From contig WHTT01000024.1 in the NCBI GenBank assembly GCA_009377605.1, positions 1-64,000 on the forward strand: DNA of 64,000 bases. The letters are read 5' to 3'. The notes under the pieces were generated by a model. It did not search any database, had not been told where the DNA came from, and saw only the letters and a program-made list of their open reading frames with translations. Source of the DNA: Luteitalea sp. (GTDB lineage: Bacteria; Acidobacteriota; Vicinamibacteria; Vicinamibacterales; Vicinamibacteraceae). The number at the start of each line of letters is the position of its first letter. Position 1 is the stretch's first letter. The position numbers and the translations under genes were made by a program. Positions 54,892 through 64,000 of this stretch are shown piece by piece.

Positions 54892-54948
54892 TCCCAAGAT
54901 CGAGCGGCCGGTCCTGAGGCGCGCGCGGACCCATCGACACCTCCATGG

Positions 54949-54960
54949 CGAAGCGCTTCG
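54949..54960. promoter_or_regulatory. LacI-type operator site 1 (iolD upstream)
   Basis: CGAAGCGCTTCG is a perfect 12-bp palindrome with central CG, as LacI-family operators have. It lies about 70 nt upstream of the iolD promoter. One of five such sites around this locus. Confidence 0.6.
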
Positions 54961-55027
54961 TTCACCGGAATATTGCGGCAAATCCGCGATCGTTGGCCGC
55001 TCTCATGACGCCAACTAGCGAATCGCT

Positions 55028-55055
55028 TTGCGAACAGCGAGATTGTTGCTAGACT
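55028..55055 (+). promoter_or_regulatory. Candidate iolD promoter
   Basis: TTGCGA (55028), a 16-nt spacer and TAGACT (55050) lie about 70 nt before the GTG start. The match is fair only. Confidence 0.4.
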
Positions 55056-55125: not shown

Positions 55126-57051
55126 GTGTCCAGCACGCGGCGTCTGACGGTCGCGCAGGCGATTGTCGAGTTTCTCGTTCAACAGCACACGCGTCGCGAC
55201 GATGTCGAACAGCCGTTGTTCGCTGGCGCCTTCGCCATCTTCGGCCATGGCAACGTCGCCGGGCTGGGAGCGGCGCTCCTGGAGCGGACCGATCGGCTCC
55301 GCTGCATCCTCCCGCGCAACGAGCAGGCGATGGTGCACAGCGCTGTCGGCTTCGCCAAGATGCAGAACCGGCTCCAGGCGATGGTGTGCACCACCTCGAT
55401 CGGCCCCGGCGCGACCAACATGATTACCGGCGCGGCCGTCGCGACGATCAATCGGCTCCCCGTGCTGCTCCTGCCGGGCGATCTCTTCGCCACGCGCGCG
55501 CCCGCCCCGGTGCTTCAGCAGCTCGAGTCCGCGCAGTCGCAGGACGTGTCGGTCAACGACTGCTTCAAGCCAGTCTCGCGGTACTGGGATCGGATCAACC
55601 GGCCGGAGCAGGTGATCGCCGCGCTCCCTGAGGCCATGCGCGTGCTGACGTCCCCTGCCGAAACCGGCGCGGTGACGCTCTGCCTGCCGCAGGACGTGCA
55701 GACCGAGGCGTTCGATTTCCCCGAGGCGCTGTTTCGCAAGCGCGTCTGGACGATCCCACGTCTCCGGCCGGACGCGACGCTGCTCGCCGAGGCCGTCGCG
55801 CTGCTGCGGCAGGCGACGAGGCCGGTGATCGTCGCCGGCGGCGGCGTGCACTACAGCGGCGCCATCGACAGCCTCCGCGCGTTTGTCGACGCCACCGGGA
55901 TCGCCGTCGTCGAGACGCACGCGGGCAAGGGCGCGCTGCCGTACGACCATCCACAGGCGCTCGGCGCCGTCGGTGTCACCGGCACGCCGGGCGCGAACCG
56001 TCTCACGCGCGAAGCCGACGTCGTGCTCGTGGTGGGCTCGCGCCTCAGCGACTTCACGACCGCGTCGAAGAGCGCGTTCCAAAATCCGGCCGTGCGCTTC
56101 ATCGGCCTCAACGTCACCGAGCTCGATGCAGGCAAGCACCAGGCGCTGCCGCTCGTCGCCGATGCGCAGGTGACGCTCGACGAGCTGCGCCCCGCGCTCG
56201 CCGGATGGGAGACCTCCGCCGCGTACCGCGAGCAGGTCACGCGCGACCGTCTCGACTGGGAGCAGGAGATCGATCGGATCGTCGCGGGCCAGCAACAGGC
56301 GGACGAGCTTGCCGCCATTCCATCCGATCGGCAGGGCGCGGAGGCTGGGCGTCGTGCCATCAGCCAGGGCGAAGTCATCGGCCTGCTGAACGGGTTCGTC
56401 GGGCCGCGTGACGTCATCATCAACGCGGCGGGCAGCCTCCCGGGCGATCTCCACAAGCTCTGGCGCGCGCGCGATCCGAAGCAATATCACCTCGAATACG
56501 GCTACTCCTGCATGGGCTACGAGATCGCGGCGGGCCTGGGCGTGAAGCTGGCGGCCCCGGATCGCGACGTCTACGTGCTGGCGGGCGATGGCTCCTACCT
56601 GATGATGGCGCAGGAGATCGCGACCGCCGTGCAAGAGGGCATCCGTCTGACGATCCTCGTGCTGGACAACCACGGATTCGCGAGCATCGGGGCGCTCTCC
56701 GAATCTGTCGGCGCGCAGGGCTTCGCGACGGAGTATCGCTATCGGACCGAGTGCTCCGACCGGCTCGACGGGCCGCCCGTGCAGGTGGACTTCGCGGCCA
56801 ACGCGGCCTCGCTCGGCGCCCACGTGTGGCGCGCCGAGTCCCGCGACGCGATCCGTGAGGCGCTGCAGGCGGCCAAGGCGACGGAGGAGGGTGTCACGGC
56901 TATCGTCATTCCTGTCGATCGGCACGCGCAAGTCGGCGGACCGCCCGTGTGGTGGGACGTACCCGTCGCCGAGACCTCCACGCTCGCCAGCGTGCAAGAG
57001 GCGCGCGCACGCTACGTCGCCGCGCGTGCGCAACGCCGCTTCTATCTCTAG
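55126..57051 (+). CDS. iolD: 3D-(3,5/4)-trihydroxycyclohexane-1,2-dione hydrolase
   Basis: The protein has 641 residues, with a GTG start and GAGGAGG upstream. The thiamine-diphosphate enzyme layout is complete. The pyrimidine domain has the catalytic Glu in ILPRNEQAMVHSAVGF (E66). The central domain is at about 215-350. The cofactor domain has LAGDGSYLMMAQEIATAVQE with the Mg-binding GDG and downstream DNHGF. QPLFAGAFAIFGHGNVAGLG is a strong IolD signature. It opens the ring of the diketone in myo-inositol breakdown. Its stop lies in a large hairpin shared with the convergent lacI gene. Confidence 0.95.
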   Translation: MSSTRRLTVAQAIVEFLVQQHTRRDDVEQPLFAGAFAIFGHGNVAGLGAALLERTDRLRCILPRNEQAMVHSAVGFAKMQNRLQAMVCTTSIGPGATNMITGAAVATINRLPVLLLPGDLFATRAPAPVLQQLESAQSQDVSVNDCFKPVSRYWDRINRPEQVIAALPEAMRVLTSPAETGAVTLCLPQDVQTEAFDFPEALFRKRVWTIPRLRPDATLLAEAVALLRQATRPVIVAGGGVHYSGAIDSLRAFVDATGIAVVETHAGKGALPYDHPQALGAVGVTGTPGANRLTREADVVLVVGSRLSDFTTASKSAFQNPAVRFIGLNVTELDAGKHQALPLVADAQVTLDELRPALAGWETSAAYREQVTRDRLDWEQEIDRIVAGQQQADELAAIPSDRQGAEAGRRAISQGEVIGLLNGFVGPRDVIINAAGSLPGDLHKLWRARDPKQYHLEYGYSCMGYEIAAGLGVKLAAPDRDVYVLAGDGSYLMMAQEIATAVQEGIRLTILVLDNHGFASIGALSESVGAQGFATEYRYRTECSDRLDGPPVQVDFAANAASLGAHVWRAESRDAIREALQAAKATEEGVTAIVIPVDRHAQVGGPPVWWDVPVAETSTLASVQEARARYVAARAQRRFYL

Positions 57052-57123
57052 TGCGGTGTCTCCGAAATAGCTTGGCATTCGGCCGCCCTCGGTGCACAAG
57101 CTATTTCGGAGACACCACACTAG
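57048..57123. terminator. 27-bp-arm hairpin between iolD and lacI-type gene
   Basis: The arms 57048-57074 (CTAGTGCGGTGTCTCCGAAA then TAGCTTG) and 57097-57123 are reverse complements with one mismatch, around a 22-nt loop. The left arm includes the iolD stop codon. It could act as a bidirectional terminator for the convergent genes, or be a small palindromic mobile repeat ending in CTAG on both sides. Confidence 0.7.
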
Positions 57124-57135
57124 ACAGGCGCGCCG

Positions 57136-58179
57136 CTACCGGCCGGGCTTCGCGCCGCGACCGGCGCGCAGGTGATAGCCGCACGACTCGCGGATGAGCA
57201 GCGACGTCTTCAACACGACGGTCTTGAAGCCGCGCAGCCTCTTCTGGCCCTCGGGCGGGTCGAGCGTGTTGATGAGGAGCTCGGCCGCCGCCTGTCCGAT
57301 CTCGTACTTCGGAAGGTTGATGGTCGTCAGCCGCGGCGAGAACGCCTCGAGCCACGGGTGATCGTCGCACGTGACGAGGCCGATGTCGTCAGGGCAACGG
57401 ATCTGGTATTGGCGCAGCGCCGCCATGAAGCCGACGGCGCTCATGTAGTTTGCGACGAACACGGCGTCCGGCTTCCGCTTGAGCAGCGTGATGCCGGCGT
57501 CGTAGCCCGCCTCGACACGGAAGTCGCCGGACACGACGAGGTCTGGATCGACGGCGAGGCCGCCCGCCTCGAGCGCCTCCTTGTAGCCGACGAAGCGGCG
57601 CCGCGATGTGCTGACCTGCGGGCCGTTCAGCATGGCGATCCTGCGATAGCCGAGACGCACCAGATGCGCCACGGCTTCGTACGCGCCGCCCTCTTCGTCG
57701 ACTGTCACCACGTCGGAGCGGAGGCCCATGCCGAAGCGCATCAACTGGACGAGCGGCACGCCGAGCGTCTTGATCTGCTCGGCGACGTCGACGGGGATCC
57801 GGCCGCGAGCCTTGGTCAGCAGGATCCCATCGACGCGCTTGGCGAGGAACAGCCGGAGGGACTGCGCTTCCTTCTCGGGGTCGTCGTCGCTGTTGGCGAG
57901 CAGCAGCTCGTAGCGGCGGCTGCGCGCGCCGTCTTCGACGCCCCGGACGACGGCGGGCCAGAACGGGTTGGCGATGTTGAGGGCGATCATGCCGAGCGTC
58001 TGGGTCCGCTGGCGTGCGAGGCTGCGGGCGACGAGGTTGGGCTGGTAGTTGAGCTCGTGGACCGCGCCGGTGACGCGCGCCTTGAGAGCGGGGCTGACGT
58101 AGGCCGTGTGGTTGAGGACGGCGGAGACGGTGGCCGTCGAGACGCGGGCGCGCTTGGCGACATCGAAGATCGTGGCCAT
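57136..58179 (-). CDS. LacI-family transcriptional regulator of the inositol-type locus
   Basis: The protein has 347 residues. The HTH is TIFDVAKRARVSTATVSAVL, then the hinge helix LVARSLARQRT. The periplasmic-binding-like effector domain reads TLGMIALNIANPFWPAVVRG, VDGILLTKARGR, and ends with the family phrase VVLKTSLLIRESC. It lies between iolD and iolB, divergent from iolB. AAGCGCTT palindromes lie before its own start and before iolD, iolB and the TonB receptor, so it most likely represses them until an inositol-type ligand binds. Confidence 0.93.
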   Translation of the reverse strand: MATIFDVAKRARVSTATVSAVLNHTAYVSPALKARVTGAVHELNYQPNLVARSLARQRTQTLGMIALNIANPFWPAVVRGVEDGARSRRYELLLANSDDDPEKEAQSLRLFLAKRVDGILLTKARGRIPVDVAEQIKTLGVPLVQLMRFGMGLRSDVVTVDEEGGAYEAVAHLVRLGYRRIAMLNGPQVSTSRRRFVGYKEALEAGGLAVDPDLVVSGDFRVEAGYDAGITLLKRKPDAVFVANYMSAVGFMAALRQYQIRCPDDIGLVTCDDHPWLEAFSPRLTTINLPKYEIGQAAAELLINTLDPPEGQKRLRGFKTVVLKTSLLIRESCGYHLRAGRGAKPGR

Positions 58180-58230
58180 CGTCAGCCTCCAGGCTAGCGA
58201 CGCATTCTAGCAAGCACGGGGCGCGCTTGC

Positions 58231-58240
58231 AAAGCGCTTA
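58231..58240. promoter_or_regulatory. LacI-type operator site 2 (before lacI-type gene)
   Basis: AAAGCGCTTA lies 52 nt before the regulator start. It pairs with site 3 at a centre distance of about 212 bp, flanking the promoter at 58318. Confidence 0.6.
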
Positions 58241-58317
58241 GCTCCGGGGCCGCTCTGGCGCCGACGGCGCGTGCGCGCGGCGGTTGACCACGCGCGGCAG
58301 GGGAGCGGCAGGGGCGG

Positions 58318-58348
58318 TTGACAACGAACGGCACGGCGGGCGTATACT
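58318..58348 (+). promoter_or_regulatory. Candidate iolB promoter
   Basis: TTGACA (58318-58323) and TATACT (58343-58348) are both near-consensus, but the spacer is 19 nt, longer than ideal. It lies between operator sites 2 and 3. Confidence 0.5.
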
Positions 58349-58437
58349 AGCGACCCACGCGCCAGGACTGCCCACCACGGGCGCTCGCGGCGTTGTCGTG
58401 CCGCGCGCGCTGCTGCCGCCGGCCGCGGCATCCGCGT

Positions 58438-58457
58438 CCAGCGAAGCGCTTCGCTGG
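58438..58457. promoter_or_regulatory. LacI-type operator site 3 (before iolB)
   Basis: CCAGCGAAGCGCTTCGCTGG is a perfect 20-bp palindrome, the longest of the five sites. It lies downstream of the iolB promoter and 56 nt before its start codon, where a bound repressor would block transcription. Confidence 0.7.
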
Positions 58458-58512
58458 CGAGCCCGCGCAGGCGTGGGGCACCGAGGAGGCAGGCGTTGGA
58501 GGATTCAGGCGC

Positions 58513-59397
58513 ATGACGAACAGTCGTTCCCTGCTACGCTCGCGCGCAGCGCGCAATGGATCGGGCACCCTCGTGGCGGTGACGCCGGAGCGAGCTGGCT
58601 GGGACTACGTGCACTTCGCGGCACGCCGCATCGCGGCCGGCGACCGGTGGGCGGGACGGACGGGCGGAGATGAGGTCTGTCTCGTGCTGCTCCGCGGCGA
58701 GGCGGTCGTGACCTGCGCGTCCGCCCGATCGGGGGCAGTGCCCGCGAAGCCGGTGCGGCTCGGGCCGCGGCGCGACGTGTTCAGCGACTATCCGCACGCG
58801 CTCTACCTGCCGCGGGGCACGCGCTTCGAGGTGCGCGCGCGGCGCGCGACCGAGATCGCCGACTGCCGGTCGCCCACCGATCGCCGAAACGATGCGTTCG
58901 AGATCCGGCCACAGGATTGCGGGCTCGAGGTGCGCGGCGGCGGCAACGCCACGCGCCAGATCATCGACATCCTGCCGCCGTCGGCGCCGGCCGATCGCCT
59001 GCTGATCTGCGAGGTGTTGACCCCAGGCGGGAACTGGTCCAGCTATCCGCCGCACAAGCACGATCGGCATGCCCCGCCAATCGAGGCGGCCCTCGAAGAG
59101 ACGTACTACTTCCGATTCGCGCAGCCGAACGGCTTCGGCTATCAACGCCTGTACAGCCCCGACGGCCGGCAGGACACGGTGCTGCGCGTGACCCACGGTG
59201 ACCTCGTGCTCGTACCGGAGGGCTATCATCCGTTCGTTACAGCGCCGGGCTACGATGCCTATTACTTGAACGTGCTGGCCGGCAGCATCCGCTCGATGGC
59301 GGCGTTCGACGATCCGCGCTACGCGCACGTGCGTGCGAATTGGCCCCCGGCCGATCCGCGGGTGCCCATGGTCCCTCCGCCGGGTGTTCAGCCATGA
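58513..59397 (+). CDS. iolB: 5-deoxy-glucuronate isomerase
   Basis: The protein has 294 residues. The start at 58513 has GGAGG about ten bases upstream. The bicupin fold carries the metal site SSYPPHKHDRHAPPIEAALE followed by ETYYFRFAQPNGFGYQRLYS, with His, His and Glu, and the last His in VPEGYHPFVTAPGYDAYYLN. These are diagnostic for IolB, which isomerises 5-deoxy-D-glucuronate (the IolD product) to 2-deoxy-5-keto-gluconate. The presence of iolD and iolB together identifies the pathway. Confidence 0.95.
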   Translation: MTNSRSLLRSRAARNGSGTLVAVTPERAGWDYVHFAARRIAAGDRWAGRTGGDEVCLVLLRGEAVVTCASARSGAVPAKPVRLGPRRDVFSDYPHALYLPRGTRFEVRARRATEIADCRSPTDRRNDAFEIRPQDCGLEVRGGGNATRQIIDILPPSAPADRLLICEVLTPGGNWSSYPPHKHDRHAPPIEAALEETYYFRFAQPNGFGYQRLYSPDGRQDTVLRVTHGDLVLVPEGYHPFVTAPGYDAYYLNVLAGSIRSMAAFDDPRYAHVRANWPPADPRVPMVPPPGVQP

Positions 59398-59488
59398 AGA
59401 CGCTCGCGACGCACGCACCAGGCGGAAGGAACCTGACCGTGCTGGGCGTCGACGCGCCAGCCCGGGGCCCTTCGGGACGACGTGGTGA

Positions 59489-59500
59489 CGAAGCGCTTCG
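59489..59500. promoter_or_regulatory. LacI-type operator site 4 (upstream of TonB receptor promoter)
   Basis: CGAAGCGCTTCG, identical to site 1. It lies about 80 nt upstream of the candidate receptor promoter and 201 bp centre-to-centre from site 5. Confidence 0.6.
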
Positions 59501-59581
59501 ACAGCGGCGTTCGATCGCGAGACGGAGCGCGTGTCGGCCCGACAATGCCGTCGGAACGCTGAGGAAAGCGACAAGAGGGTC

Positions 59582-59610
59582 TTGACAATAGCGCCTCGGC
59601 GCGGCATGCT
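59582..59610 (+). promoter_or_regulatory. Candidate promoter of the TonB receptor
   Basis: TTGACA (59582-59587), a 17-nt spacer and CATGCT. The -10 is poor. It lies between operator sites 4 and 5, within the 399-bp gap between iolB and the receptor, where no gene is seen. Confidence 0.4.
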
Positions 59611-59689
59611 GCGACAGACCCTGTGAGGCGGTAGCGACGGCGCCATTGGCTTGGCTGCGGGCTGATGGCGCCATAAATAGCCGATGCAG

Positions 59690-59701
59690 CTAAGCGCTTA
59701 G
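59690..59701. promoter_or_regulatory. LacI-type operator site 5 (TonB receptor leader)
   Basis: CTAAGCGCTTAG is a perfect 12-bp palindrome 95 nt before the receptor start codon. It shares the AAGCGCTT core with the other four sites. Confidence 0.65.
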
Positions 59702-59796
59702 TTGTAAGACGCTGCACGATCGGCAGCACGGGCGGAGGGGCCGCGCCCACGGCGCGGCAGGCGCATCCGCGCCGATCGGCGCCAGAGGAGGAACCG

Positions 59797-62700
59797 ATGA
59801 CCGCGACGGTCGGGAAGCACTGCGCACTACTCGTCGCGATGCTGCTGGGAGCCGCATCGCTCTCGTTCGCCCAGTCGGACGCCGGAGGCCTACGGGTCCT
59901 GGTCGTCGATGGGACCGGATCGGTCCTGCCGGGCGCCCTCGTCTCCGTGACGAGCGTGGCCACGAACGTGATGGACACCAACGTGTCCAACAGCGAAGGC
60001 TATGCGTTCTTCACCCCCATTCCACGCGGCACCTATGTCGTCGAAGTCTCGCTCGACGGCTTCCAGTCGGTGCGCGTGCGCGACGTCAGCGTCGACGTGC
60101 AGCAGGACCGCCTCGTTCGGGCCGCGCTCGAGGTCGCGCAGGTCAGCGAGACCCTCGAGGTCACCGCCCAGGCCGCCCCCGTGCAGTCCGAAGAGGGCTC
60201 GCTCGGACAGGTCATCCAGGGCACCGTCGCCGTGGAGCTCCCGCTCGCCGCGCGTCGTTACAGCGACCTTGCGCTGCTCGCGCCGGGCTCGAGCAACAGC
60301 ACGCTCAACAGCGAGATCCGCGGCCCAGGTTGGTTCACGGTCAACGGCACCTCCCACACGCAGAACAATTTCGTCCTCGACGGGTTCGACAACAATCAGG
60401 GCACGACCAACATGCAATCGCTGTCGTCGCAGGTCGTGCAGCCGTCGCCCGACGCGATCGGTGAGTTCAAGGTCCAGACCAACAGCTTCTCGGCCGAGTT
60501 CGGCCGCTCCGCCGGCGCCGTCGTCAACGTCTCGCTGAAGTCCGGCACCAACGCGCGCCACGGATCCGGCTGGTACTACAACCGGTCCGACGCGCTGGCC
60601 GCCAACTCGTGGCGGGCCAATGCGCTCGATCAGGCGAAAGACGACCTCTCGTGGAACCAGTTCGGCGGCACCTTCGGCGGACCCATCATCGCGAACCGCG
60701 TGTTCTACTTCGGGCACTACGAAGGCTTCGATAGCGACAAGACGAACTTCTTCCTGACAGAGGTGCCCACGCTCGCGCAGCGCGACGGGAGCTTCCCGTT
60801 CGCCGTGCGCGATCCGGTGACGGGACAAGACTTCGCCGGCAACACGATTCCGCAGTCGCGCCTGGATCCGCTCGGCGCCAAGCTCGTGGACCTGTATCCG
60901 GAGCCCAACCTGCCGGGCCGCGTCGTGCCGGGCGGACGCACGGTCGAGAACTATGGCGTCTCGCGGCCGCAGACGGAGAGCACCCACAAGTTCGACATTC
61001 GCAACGACTACTACGTGTCGTCACAGGACCGCCTGTTCGTGCGCTACAGCTTCCTGCAGCAGGATATCTTCCGCGGGGCGATCTTCGCGCCGCCGGTCGA
61101 CGACGGCGCCGAAGGACGCGGGTCGCAGTACAACCGGAACCAGAGCTTGGGGACGAGCTGGACCCGCACGATCGGCGCGACGACCGTGAACGAGCTGCGC
61201 TTCGGCTACAACCGGACGTACGCCGCGTTCGAGCACGAAACGGTCGGCGGGATGAGCGGCACCGAGTTCGGCTTCGAGGGCATTCCGCCGGAGATGGACG
61301 CGACCGGCGGGCTGCCGCGGATCGCGGTGACCAACTACGAATCGATGGGCACGGGCTCATGGCGTCCGCAGTATCAGCTGCCGCAGTCGTTCCAGATCCT
61401 CGACGTGGTGACGATGGCGCGCGGGTCCCACGCGCTGTCGGCAGGCGTCGAGTTCCGGCACAAGCAGAACGAGTTCGTCGACGTCCGGCGCCGCAATCCG
61501 GAGTACTCGTTCACCGGGTTCTTCACGGGTGACGGGATCGCCGACATGCTGCTCGGCTGGCCGCAGACGCTGCGGATGAACAACGTGATGACGGCGGTGC
61601 AGCGCCAGAACGCGCTGGCGGGCTTCCTCCAGGACGACTGGAAGGTGACGCCGAACTTCACGCTCAACCTGGGCGTGCGGTACGAGTACGCCACGCCGTA
61701 CTGGGCCGACGAGCCGTACCCCAACATCAACATCGATGTCGAAACGGGCGAGCTCGTGCGGGCCACCGACGACAACCGGTATCTCGTCGATACCGACAGG
61801 AACAACATCGCGCCGCGCCTCGGCTTCGCGTATCAGGTGAAGCCGGAGCAGCTCGTCGTGCGCGGCGGCTACGGCCTGTTCTATGGCGGCGAGGAGTTCC
61901 GCGGATCGGGCGGCAACCTCGTGATGAACCCTCCCAACATGCTGTCGCCGGCCGTGACGCCCGTCGGCAACGAGCCGCCGCCGTACCTGGTCTCCGATCC
62001 CGTGCCGGCCCACCTGGCGACGTCATGGGACCCGGCGGACTCGGTGCGCACGAGCCTGCAGGTGCGCGATCCGGACCAGGACGCGGTCACGCTGCACCAG
62101 TGGAACGTCGCCGTGGAGCTGCGGCTGCCGATGGCGTCGACGATCGAGCTGGCGTACGTCGGCAACCGCGGGCGCAACCTCGCCGGCACGTGGCAATTGA
62201 ACCAGGTGCCGTTCGGCGTGGATGGCAGCGTCCCAGAGAACCGGCCATATCCGATGTGGAGCGGCATCGAGTTCTACGACACGCGGGCGCGATCGCAGTA
62301 CGACGGACTCCAGGCGAAGTTCGAGCACCGGTTCGCGAATGGCTGGTACAACCTGACGTCGTACTCGTACGGGCGCGCGTTCTCCGAGACCGGCGGCTTT
62401 GCGGCCAGCAACAGCCCACAGCTCTTGGGCGACTGGCGCGCGGAGTGGGCGCCCGACAGCCAGACGCCGCGGCACAGGCTATCGGTGGCCAACATCTACC
62501 AGCTCCCGGTCGGACGTGGACGCGCGATCGGCACGGACATGGGCCGCGTGTCGGACTTCCTGCTGGGCGGCTGGCAGATCTCGTCACTGGTCACATGGCA
62601 GACGGGCATTCCGGTCAACGTGACGCTCGCGTCGACCGGCATCGATCCCGCGACCGGCGAGCCGTACCGCTTCCTCGACCGCAACGGCGGCGGGCTGCGT

Positions 62701-63042
62701 CCGAACCTCGTGGGCGAGCCGAGCACCGGGATCGATCCGAAGGAGGATCGGTTCGCGTTCCTCAGCACGAGCGCGTACGAGGTGCAGACGCTCGACACGC
62801 CCGGTAACGCGCCGCGCAACTCGGCGTGGGGGCCGCGCTTCGCGAACGTCGACATCAGCCTGGTCAAGCGCTTCCGCCTGGACGATTCGCGGTACTTCGA
62901 CTTTCGCGCCGAGGCGTTCAACGTGCTGAACTCGACGCGCTTCCGTAATCCGGGCGGCGGGTTCGGTGGCTCGAGCTTCGGGATCATCAACGATGCCTAC
63001 GATCCGCGCGTGATTCAGATCGCGCTGCGGTTCGCCTTCTAA
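59797..63042 (+). CDS. Oar-like TonB-dependent receptor of the inositol-type locus
   Basis: The protein has 1081 residues, with GAGGAGGAA just upstream. It has a signal peptide (LVAMLLGAASLSFAQ), a carboxypeptidase-regulatory-like domain (LRVLVVDGTGSVLPGALVSV), a plug (RRYSDLALLAPGSSNS, HTQNNFVLDGFDNNQGTTNM, GEFKVQTNSFSAEFGRSAGA), a barrel, and a C-terminal aromatic ending VIQIALRFAF. With LacI-type operators on both sides of its promoter it is the probable outer-membrane importer of the locus, for inositol or an inositol conjugate such as phytate breakdown products. The substrate is inferred from context. Confidence 0.92.
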   Translation: MTATVGKHCALLVAMLLGAASLSFAQSDAGGLRVLVVDGTGSVLPGALVSVTSVATNVMDTNVSNSEGYAFFTPIPRGTYVVEVSLDGFQSVRVRDVSVDVQQDRLVRAALEVAQVSETLEVTAQAAPVQSEEGSLGQVIQGTVAVELPLAARRYSDLALLAPGSSNSTLNSEIRGPGWFTVNGTSHTQNNFVLDGFDNNQGTTNMQSLSSQVVQPSPDAIGEFKVQTNSFSAEFGRSAGAVVNVSLKSGTNARHGSGWYYNRSDALAANSWRANALDQAKDDLSWNQFGGTFGGPIIANRVFYFGHYEGFDSDKTNFFLTEVPTLAQRDGSFPFAVRDPVTGQDFAGNTIPQSRLDPLGAKLVDLYPEPNLPGRVVPGGRTVENYGVSRPQTESTHKFDIRNDYYVSSQDRLFVRYSFLQQDIFRGAIFAPPVDDGAEGRGSQYNRNQSLGTSWTRTIGATTVNELRFGYNRTYAAFEHETVGGMSGTEFGFEGIPPEMDATGGLPRIAVTNYESMGTGSWRPQYQLPQSFQILDVVTMARGSHALSAGVEFRHKQNEFVDVRRRNPEYSFTGFFTGDGIADMLLGWPQTLRMNNVMTAVQRQNALAGFLQDDWKVTPNFTLNLGVRYEYATPYWADEPYPNINIDVETGELVRATDDNRYLVDTDRNNIAPRLGFAYQVKPEQLVVRGGYGLFYGGEEFRGSGGNLVMNPPNMLSPAVTPVGNEPPPYLVSDPVPAHLATSWDPADSVRTSLQVRDPDQDAVTLHQWNVAVELRLPMASTIELAYVGNRGRNLAGTWQLNQVPFGVDGSVPENRPYPMWSGIEFYDTRARSQYDGLQAKFEHRFANGWYNLTSYSYGRAFSETGGFAASNSPQLLGDWRAEWAPDSQTPRHRLSVANIYQLPVGRGRAIGTDMGRVSDFLLGGWQISSLVTWQTGIPVNVTLASTGIDPATGEPYRFLDRNGGGLRPNLVGEPSTGIDPKEDRFAFLSTSAYEVQTLDTPGNAPRNSAWGPRFANVDISLVKRFRLDDSRYFDFRAEAFNVLNSTRFRNPGGGFGGSSFGIINDAYDPRVIQIALRFAF

Positions 63043-63084
63043 GCCTGGGATTAAGCAAGCACGCGCGTTCAGAGGAGGGCCACG

Positions 63085-64000
63085 ATGAGACACACATTGC
63101 AGCGCCGCGAGTTCCTGGGGCTCGCGGCCGCAACGGCGGCGGCCGCCGCGGGCGTGCCGCTCGGCGCGGTCGGCGAGCAGGCCGCGCAACCGGACCCGTC
63201 CGGCGGTGCGGGCCAGAAGTTCCGGATCGGACACAACCTCACGACCTACATCTCGGGCGGCCGCGGAACGGACGGCTTCTGGCGGGGTGTCGAGGAGATC
63301 GCCAGCCTTGGCGTGCACGGCACCGAGGCGGACGACAATCCCTCGAAGCTCACGGCCACCTACGGCGATCGGTCCAGCGAGGTGAAGGCGCGTCTCGCGA
63401 AGCACGACATGGCGCTCGTCGCGCTCTATCACACGCTGCCGGTCTCCGACCCGGCGAAGTACCAGGAGAACCTGGACAGCGGGATGCGCGTCGGCAAGTT
63501 CCTGAAGGCCGTTGGCGGCGATCTGATCAATCTCGCGGGCGGCGAGCGGCCGCAGCCGGATCCCACGGCGGAGTTCGCAGCGTTCGCAAAGCTGGCAAAC
63601 GAGCTGGGCAAACGGCTGCAGGAGGAGTACGGGCTACGCCTCGGGTACCACCCGCACCGTGGGCATCTCCTCGAGAACCGGGCGGACATCGACCGTGCGA
63701 TGGAGATGACCAACCCAAAGTACTTCTCGCTCTGCCCCGATACGGGACACCTGCTCGCGGGCGGCGCCGATCCGCTCGACGTCTTCAAGACGTACCGCTC
63801 CCGCATCATCTACATGCACTACAAGGACTTTGACCCAGACCTCGTGACGCCGCGGACGGCCGAGACGGGGCGCAAGGGCGGCTTTGTCGAGCTGGGAAAG
63901 GGCGTGATCGATTTCTCCGCGATCACGGCGCTGCTGTTGGACACGTCGTACGACGGGTGGGTGATGATCGAGCTCGATCGCGCGCCCGCCGCGGAGATCG
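63085..64000 (+). CDS. Tat-exported sugar isomerase/inosose dehydratase-like TIM barrel, cut by window edge
   Basis: It starts at 63085 behind AGAGGAGG and is open to the window end, so at least 305 residues are present. LQRREFLGLAAATAAAAAG is a twin-arginine signal. The barrel (FRIGHNLTTYISGGRGTDGF, LGYHPHRGHLLEN, FSLCPDTGHLLAGGADPLDV, IIYMHYKDFDPDLV) carries the acid and His metal ligands of the IolE/xylose-isomerase-like family. Next to iolD and iolB, an inosose dehydratase-type role is likely, but export to the periplasm is unusual for that step. It follows the receptor by 42 nt. Confidence 0.85.
   Translation, partial: MRHTLQRREFLGLAAATAAAAAGVPLGAVGEQAAQPDPSGGAGQKFRIGHNLTTYISGGRGTDGFWRGVEEIASLGVHGTEADDNPSKLTATYGDRSSEVKARLAKHDMALVALYHTLPVSDPAKYQENLDSGMRVGKFLKAVGGDLINLAGGERPQPDPTAEFAAFAKLANELGKRLQEEYGLRLGYHPHRGHLLENRADIDRAMEMTNPKYFSLCPDTGHLLAGGADPLDVFKTYRSRIIYMHYKDFDPDLVTPRTAETGRKGGFVELGKGVIDFSAITALLLDTSYDGWVMIELDRAPAAEI

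Follow-up and report, generated by a model that had tools for sequence, protein, structure and literature searches.

The window, the whole 64,000-bp stretch of Luteitalea sp. DNA that was analyzed, carries at 55126-64000 what is, judging by the profile matches of the predicted products, a group of myo-inositol catabolism genes. On the plus strand lie iolD (55126-57051), for a trihydroxycyclohexane-1,2-dione acylhydrolase (TIGR04377, 901 bits against a cutoff of 715); iolB (58513-59397), for a 5-deoxy-glucuronate isomerase (TIGR04378, 301 bits against a cutoff of 205); a gene for an Oar-like TonB-dependent outer-membrane receptor (59797-63042; PF25183, PF13620 and PF00593); and an iolE-like gene of the xylose-isomerase fold (63085-64000; PF01261), which extends past the window end and scores 112 bits against TIGR04379, under the cutoff of 290. 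The minus strand carries, at 57136-58179, the gene for a LacI-family, RbsR/CcpA-like protein that we presume to be the iol repressor. The receptor is about 32% identical to receptors encoded near orthologous regulators in relatives, as against about 54-82% for the regulator and about 54-70% for IolB, which suggests that the window's receptor was exchanged or evolves fast. The convergent iolD and regulator genes have a short inverted-repeat element with ends CTAGTGCGGTGTCTCCGAAATAGCTTG between them (57048-57123). Its end sequence recurs at six further genomic positions, three with paired ends that enclose about 149 bp, one with a shorter pair and two with a single end; the element looks like a MITE-like dispersed element.

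The repressor matches PF00356 (60.4 bits) and PF13377 (108.9 bits), both over cutoff, giving it a LacI-type HTH and a periplasmic-binding-protein-like domain. Its nearest solved relatives by sequence are RbsR, CcpA and PurR, the best being the ribose operon repressor 9ny7, and it scores under the NCBIfam equivalog cutoffs for RbsR and CcpA. The tetramerization segment of LacI, with its leucine heptads, served for comparison with the C terminus. Aligned with LacI, the repressor matches no further than LacI residue 307, and the tail that follows the conserved RESCG is about 13 residues long and variable, has a pLDDT below 50 and contains no leucine heptads. By alignment, tail sequence and model, the repressor is missing a LacI-like C-terminal tetramerization helix, the segment that in LacI forms a four-helix bundle (PMC1762422), and such a short, variable, low-confidence tail without heptads makes a lac-type tetramer unlikely.

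Candidate operators and predicted promoters

A 20-bp weight matrix with the consensus CCAGCGAAGCGCTTCGCTGG, built from the window locus and eight relatives, finds six sites scoring above 15 within 4.75 kb of the locus (at 54948, 55018, 58229, 58441, 59488 and 59689). At that score simulated sequence gives about 4 hits per Mb, and the window's first 54 kb gives none. S1 (GCGAAGCGCTTCGT, 54948-54961; score 23.0) is intergenic and lies at about -107 from the predicted iolD start, while S1b (GCGAATCGCTTTGC, 55018-55031; 19.6), 70 bp from S1, overlaps the predicted iolD -35 (TTGCGA N16 TAGACT). S2 (GCAAAGCGCTTAGC, 58229-58242; 21.4) overlaps the -35 of the predicted repressor-gene promoter (minus strand, 58204-58232; TTGCAA N17 TAGAAT). 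S3 (58438-58457), a perfect 20-bp palindrome matching the consensus, has the top matrix score of the sites (28.2) and lies at about +93 from the predicted iolB start; S4 (ACGAAGCGCTTCGA, 59488-59501; 20.8) and S5 (GCTAAGCGCTTAGT, 59689-59702; 21.3) lie at about -122 and +80 from the predicted receptor start. The predicted iolB promoter (plus strand, 58318-58348) reads TTGACA N19 TATACT, and an equally placed TTGACA-type promoter is seen in relatives; the predicted receptor promoter (plus strand, 59582-59610) is a consensus match, TTGACA N17 CATGCT. All promoters and transcription starts given here are predictions from consensus matches, with the starts taken near 58355 for iolB and 59617 for the receptor gene, and the 19-bp spacer of the iolB promoter is long.

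The AAGCGCTT cores of S2 to S5 start at 58232, 58444, 59491 and 59692, with site centers at 58235.5, 58447.5, 59494.5 and 59695.5. An earlier, sequence-only reading of this DNA held that its sites 2 and 3 (our S2 and S3) flank the promoter at 58318 about 212 bp apart, and its sites 4 and 5 (our S4 and S5) that at 59582, 201 bp apart. Both arrangements are as it described them, with center distances of 212 and 201 bp around TTGACA followed by TATACT and by CATGCT, respectively, and the core promoters themselves are free of operators (sites at -118.5/+93.5 for iolB and -121.5/+79.5 for the receptor, from the predicted starts). It overlooked S1b, the sixth operator. An imperfect tandem repeat (GCGGTTGACCACGCGCGGCAGGGG / GCGGTTGACAACGAACGGCACGGCG) occupies 58281-58348, giving another TTGAC box 34 bp ahead of the iolB -35. 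A further AAGCGCTT at 62866-62873 was rejected as an operator: it lies inside the receptor gene, where it supplies codons for KRF, and with a matrix score below 9 it is a coding coincidence.

With 190 copies in the 6.79-Mb genome against 215 for a reversed control word, AAGCGCTT shows no genome-wide enrichment. Four copies within 1,468 bp have a Poisson probability of about 1e-7, or about 5e-4 after correction for all such windows. Since most of the matrix training came from these very loci, three controls matter: matrix sites occur in stretches beyond the training set, in G005 ahead of iolD and in G200 ahead of the receptor gene and of lacI/iolB; there are none at 28 other LacI-type loci; and there are none at iolB loci away from an ortholog of the regulator. 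All six iol sites are intergenic, whereas all seven of the other high-scoring genome sites examined, a sample from a genome-wide scan by pattern, lie inside long open reading frames. The lack of enrichment, the matrix controls and the location within reading frames elsewhere together rule out the sites as genome-wide elements. The pattern AA.CG.TT is kept in 23 of 23 aligned sites, which are even palindromes with a central CG, as LacI-family operators are (PMC4052901).

The regulator and its sites in relatives

Orthologs of the regulator, about 54-82% identical, are encoded by eight further genomes of the order and by G200. Outside the order the ortholog threshold was cleared by G200 and G199 alone, G199 having no matrix sites, and a scan of a public genome collection returned only regulators of at most 42% identity and no orthologs. 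Two sites lie around a TTGACA-type promoter upstream of the regulator in seven of these genomes, separated by 77 bp in G008, 166 in G012, 66 in G024, 68 in G038, 68 in G039, 228 in G057 and 236 in G059. Since such pairs recur at most orthologous regulators, the flanking arrangement goes beyond chance. The regulator-side site, equivalent to S2 in all seven, reads GCAAAGCGCTT or something very close to it, and its minus-strand TTTGC is the regulator's own predicted -35; the CAAAG form of the site yields this TTTGC -35 in most relatives, and in G057, G059 and G012 an operator lies over the regulator -35 much as S2 does. Because the regulator-side site supplies the predicted -35, S2 is best read as an autoregulatory operator.

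As for the second site of the pair, G024, G038 and G039 carry it at about +11. G012, G057 and G059 carry it at about +87 to +106; in these three the two operators flank the promoter without overlapping it, and the predicted start puts the promoter roughly midway between them. In G200 a single operator at lacI/iolB lies between the -35 and -10. With an operator at that position in G200 and at +11 in G024, G038 and G039, plain occlusion would be enough in these four. In G005, which has the repressor most like that of the window (82%), the receptor operators are spaced by 115 and 251 bp, with the 115-bp pair lying around the receptor promoter, and the iolD operators by 296 bp; at its iolD, GCGAAGCGCTTTGCCA overlaps the -35, with TACACT after a 19-bp spacer, as S1b does in the window. 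We note that in G012 and G057 (L070:129, L071:12715) the downstream operator lies about 50 nt inside the apparent coding start, where it reads AKRFG, an uncommon position for LacI-family sites. Comparison of the loci shows that the sites belong to the adjacent regulator and that they stand at the predicted promoters of iolD, the repressor gene, iolB and the receptor gene.

Repression by occlusion, roadblock or cooperation

We consider it probable, on the strength of these sequence comparisons, that the six sites are operators of one autoregulated RbsR/CcpA-like repressor of the LacI family that shuts off the myo-inositol locus. S1b would block the iolD -35 and S2 the repressor gene's own -35, the latter amounting to autorepression, and binding of an inositol-pathway metabolite, a guess at the inducer made from gene context, would release the locus. 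S3, at about +93, and S5, at about +80, may halt elongating RNA polymerase, cooperate with S2 and S4, or do both. In E. coli, LacI acts in vivo as a roadblock to transcription when its operator lies 102 bp downstream from the promoter (PMC4132739), and by analogy S3 and S5, at positions close to this, could repress as roadblocks. Because S1 and S4 lie upstream without a promoter of their own and are unexplained by independent action, some cooperation is favored, and these two sites are the best remaining evidence for it. Cooperation between operators is a fair hypothesis since the promoter-flanking operators are real and recur in relatives; any such cooperation would work through a flexible bridge like that of gal, not through a lac tetramer loop of precise phase.

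The sequence-only reading had proposed lac-type repression loops at both promoters, in part because the two spacings are close to whole numbers of helical turns (about 20 and 19). The arithmetic stands, 212 and 201 bp being 20.19 and 19.14 turns at 10.5 bp, but the agreement is no better than chance: two random distances come equally near whole turns with p = 0.19, or 0.07 with a tuned repeat. Across relatives, 13 spacings of 66-296 bp show no helical periodicity or preferred phase (Rayleigh p of about 0.2-0.9 over repeats of 10.4-11.2 bp per turn); the spacings are partly dependent, three coming from one near-identically laid-out family, and the result is the same after two of these are dropped. 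Conservation of phase is thereby ruled out over this range of repeats, the test addressing conservation and not function, and the two near-integral spacings are not evidence for a phased loop, tempting as that conclusion is. Lack of phase leaves loops possible, since lac loops of about 150 bp form even out of phase (PMC2553838).

It is possible, at somewhat less than an even chance, that repressor dimers pair across about 200 bp, S2 with S3 and S4 with S5, perhaps with HU, and so contribute to repression of iolB and the receptor gene. The iolB and receptor core promoters are overlapped by neither flanking operator, like flanking is seen in G059, G057 and G012 and in the 115-bp receptor pair of G005, and the gal operators OE and OI, 113 bp apart, are bridged by GalR dimers that touch directly and need HU (PMC4693257); the tolerance of lac loops for poor phasing is compatible with such a loop. 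Set against this, neither spacing nor phase is conserved, the repressor lacks the tetramerization helix, S2 is required anyway for autorepression, G200 makes do with a single operator at iolB, and roadblock explains S3 and S5. The midpoints of the candidate loop pairs fall between -22.5 and +4.5 from the predicted start in eight promoters. Upstream and downstream offsets also correlate, as they would with the promoter at the loop center, a correlation we do not claim since what underlies it is two classes of architecture that go with phylogeny. More doubtful is the broader proposition that an RbsR-like lineage without a tetramerization domain forms promoter-centered, phase-free loops of about 70-240 bp at inositol promoters in the order.

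A lac-type tetramer loop with whole-turn phasing is very improbable: it would account for the near-integral spacings of the window, but the tetramerization segment is missing, the phase agreement is of the kind expected by chance and the closest ortholog has other spacings. Slightly less probable still is that the sites serve another or a global, CcpA-like regulator of the LacI family. AAGCGCTT is near the generic LacI-family core and the genome encodes about 12 LacI homologs, but the sites track the ortholog of the adjacent regulator, are absent from the 28 other LacI-type loci and have a core without genome-wide enrichment. That the palindromes work in RNA, as leader hairpins, is the least credible reading, for although S3 and S5 fall within predicted leaders and an 8-bp hairpin could form from S3 (judged from sequence without folding), the palindromes are also found ahead of promoters, outside those leaders, at S1, S1b, S2 and S4, and the conserved AAGCGCTT center with its CG dyad is a LacI-type signature (PMC4052901).

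Comparison with known systems

For a bacterial order that has had little study, the locus yields a predicted inositol-use regulon, with its regulator, operator motif and targets. Should a loop be shown, the relatives, with spacings of 66-296 bp, would form a natural series for phase tolerance without a tetramerization domain. By sequence the closest solved relatives of the repressor are E. coli RbsR and Bacillus CcpA, although the gene neighborhood differs, and our literature search found no usable published RbsR operator sequence for comparison with S3. With E. coli lac, in which a LacI tetramer acts through O1, O2 and O3, the locus shares a LacI-fold repressor, several operators and, in some relatives, an operator at +11; it differs in having no tetramerization segment and no phase constraint, and its flanking sites in the window leave the iolB and receptor promoters uncovered. 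The nearer precedent is E. coli gal, where OE and OI flank the promoters and GalR dimers act with HU. Both systems place two operators around a promoter without overlap under a LacI-family repressor acting as dimers, whereas the gal operators are 113 bp apart against 201-212 bp here and 66-296 bp in relatives, and the loop here, like any HU site, is putative.

The closest likeness, drawn by description and not by motif sequence, is to the IolR regulons. In their comparative reconstructions, which make no mention of Acidobacteria in the text, Ravcheev et al. (2014, PMC4052901) named seven groups of LacI-family inositol regulators IolR; they found autoregulation in 72% of LacI-family regulators and more than one site in about 20% of operons. 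Like these regulons, the window pairs a LacI-family regulator of inositol genes with even, central-CG palindromes, predicted autoregulation and multiple sites, and its operators stand at inositol catabolism genes (iolD and iolB), at the receptor gene and at the regulator's own gene, and recur in relatives. IolR regulators, central-CG palindromes, autoregulation and multiple sites are already described, and the regulon predicted here adds to them.
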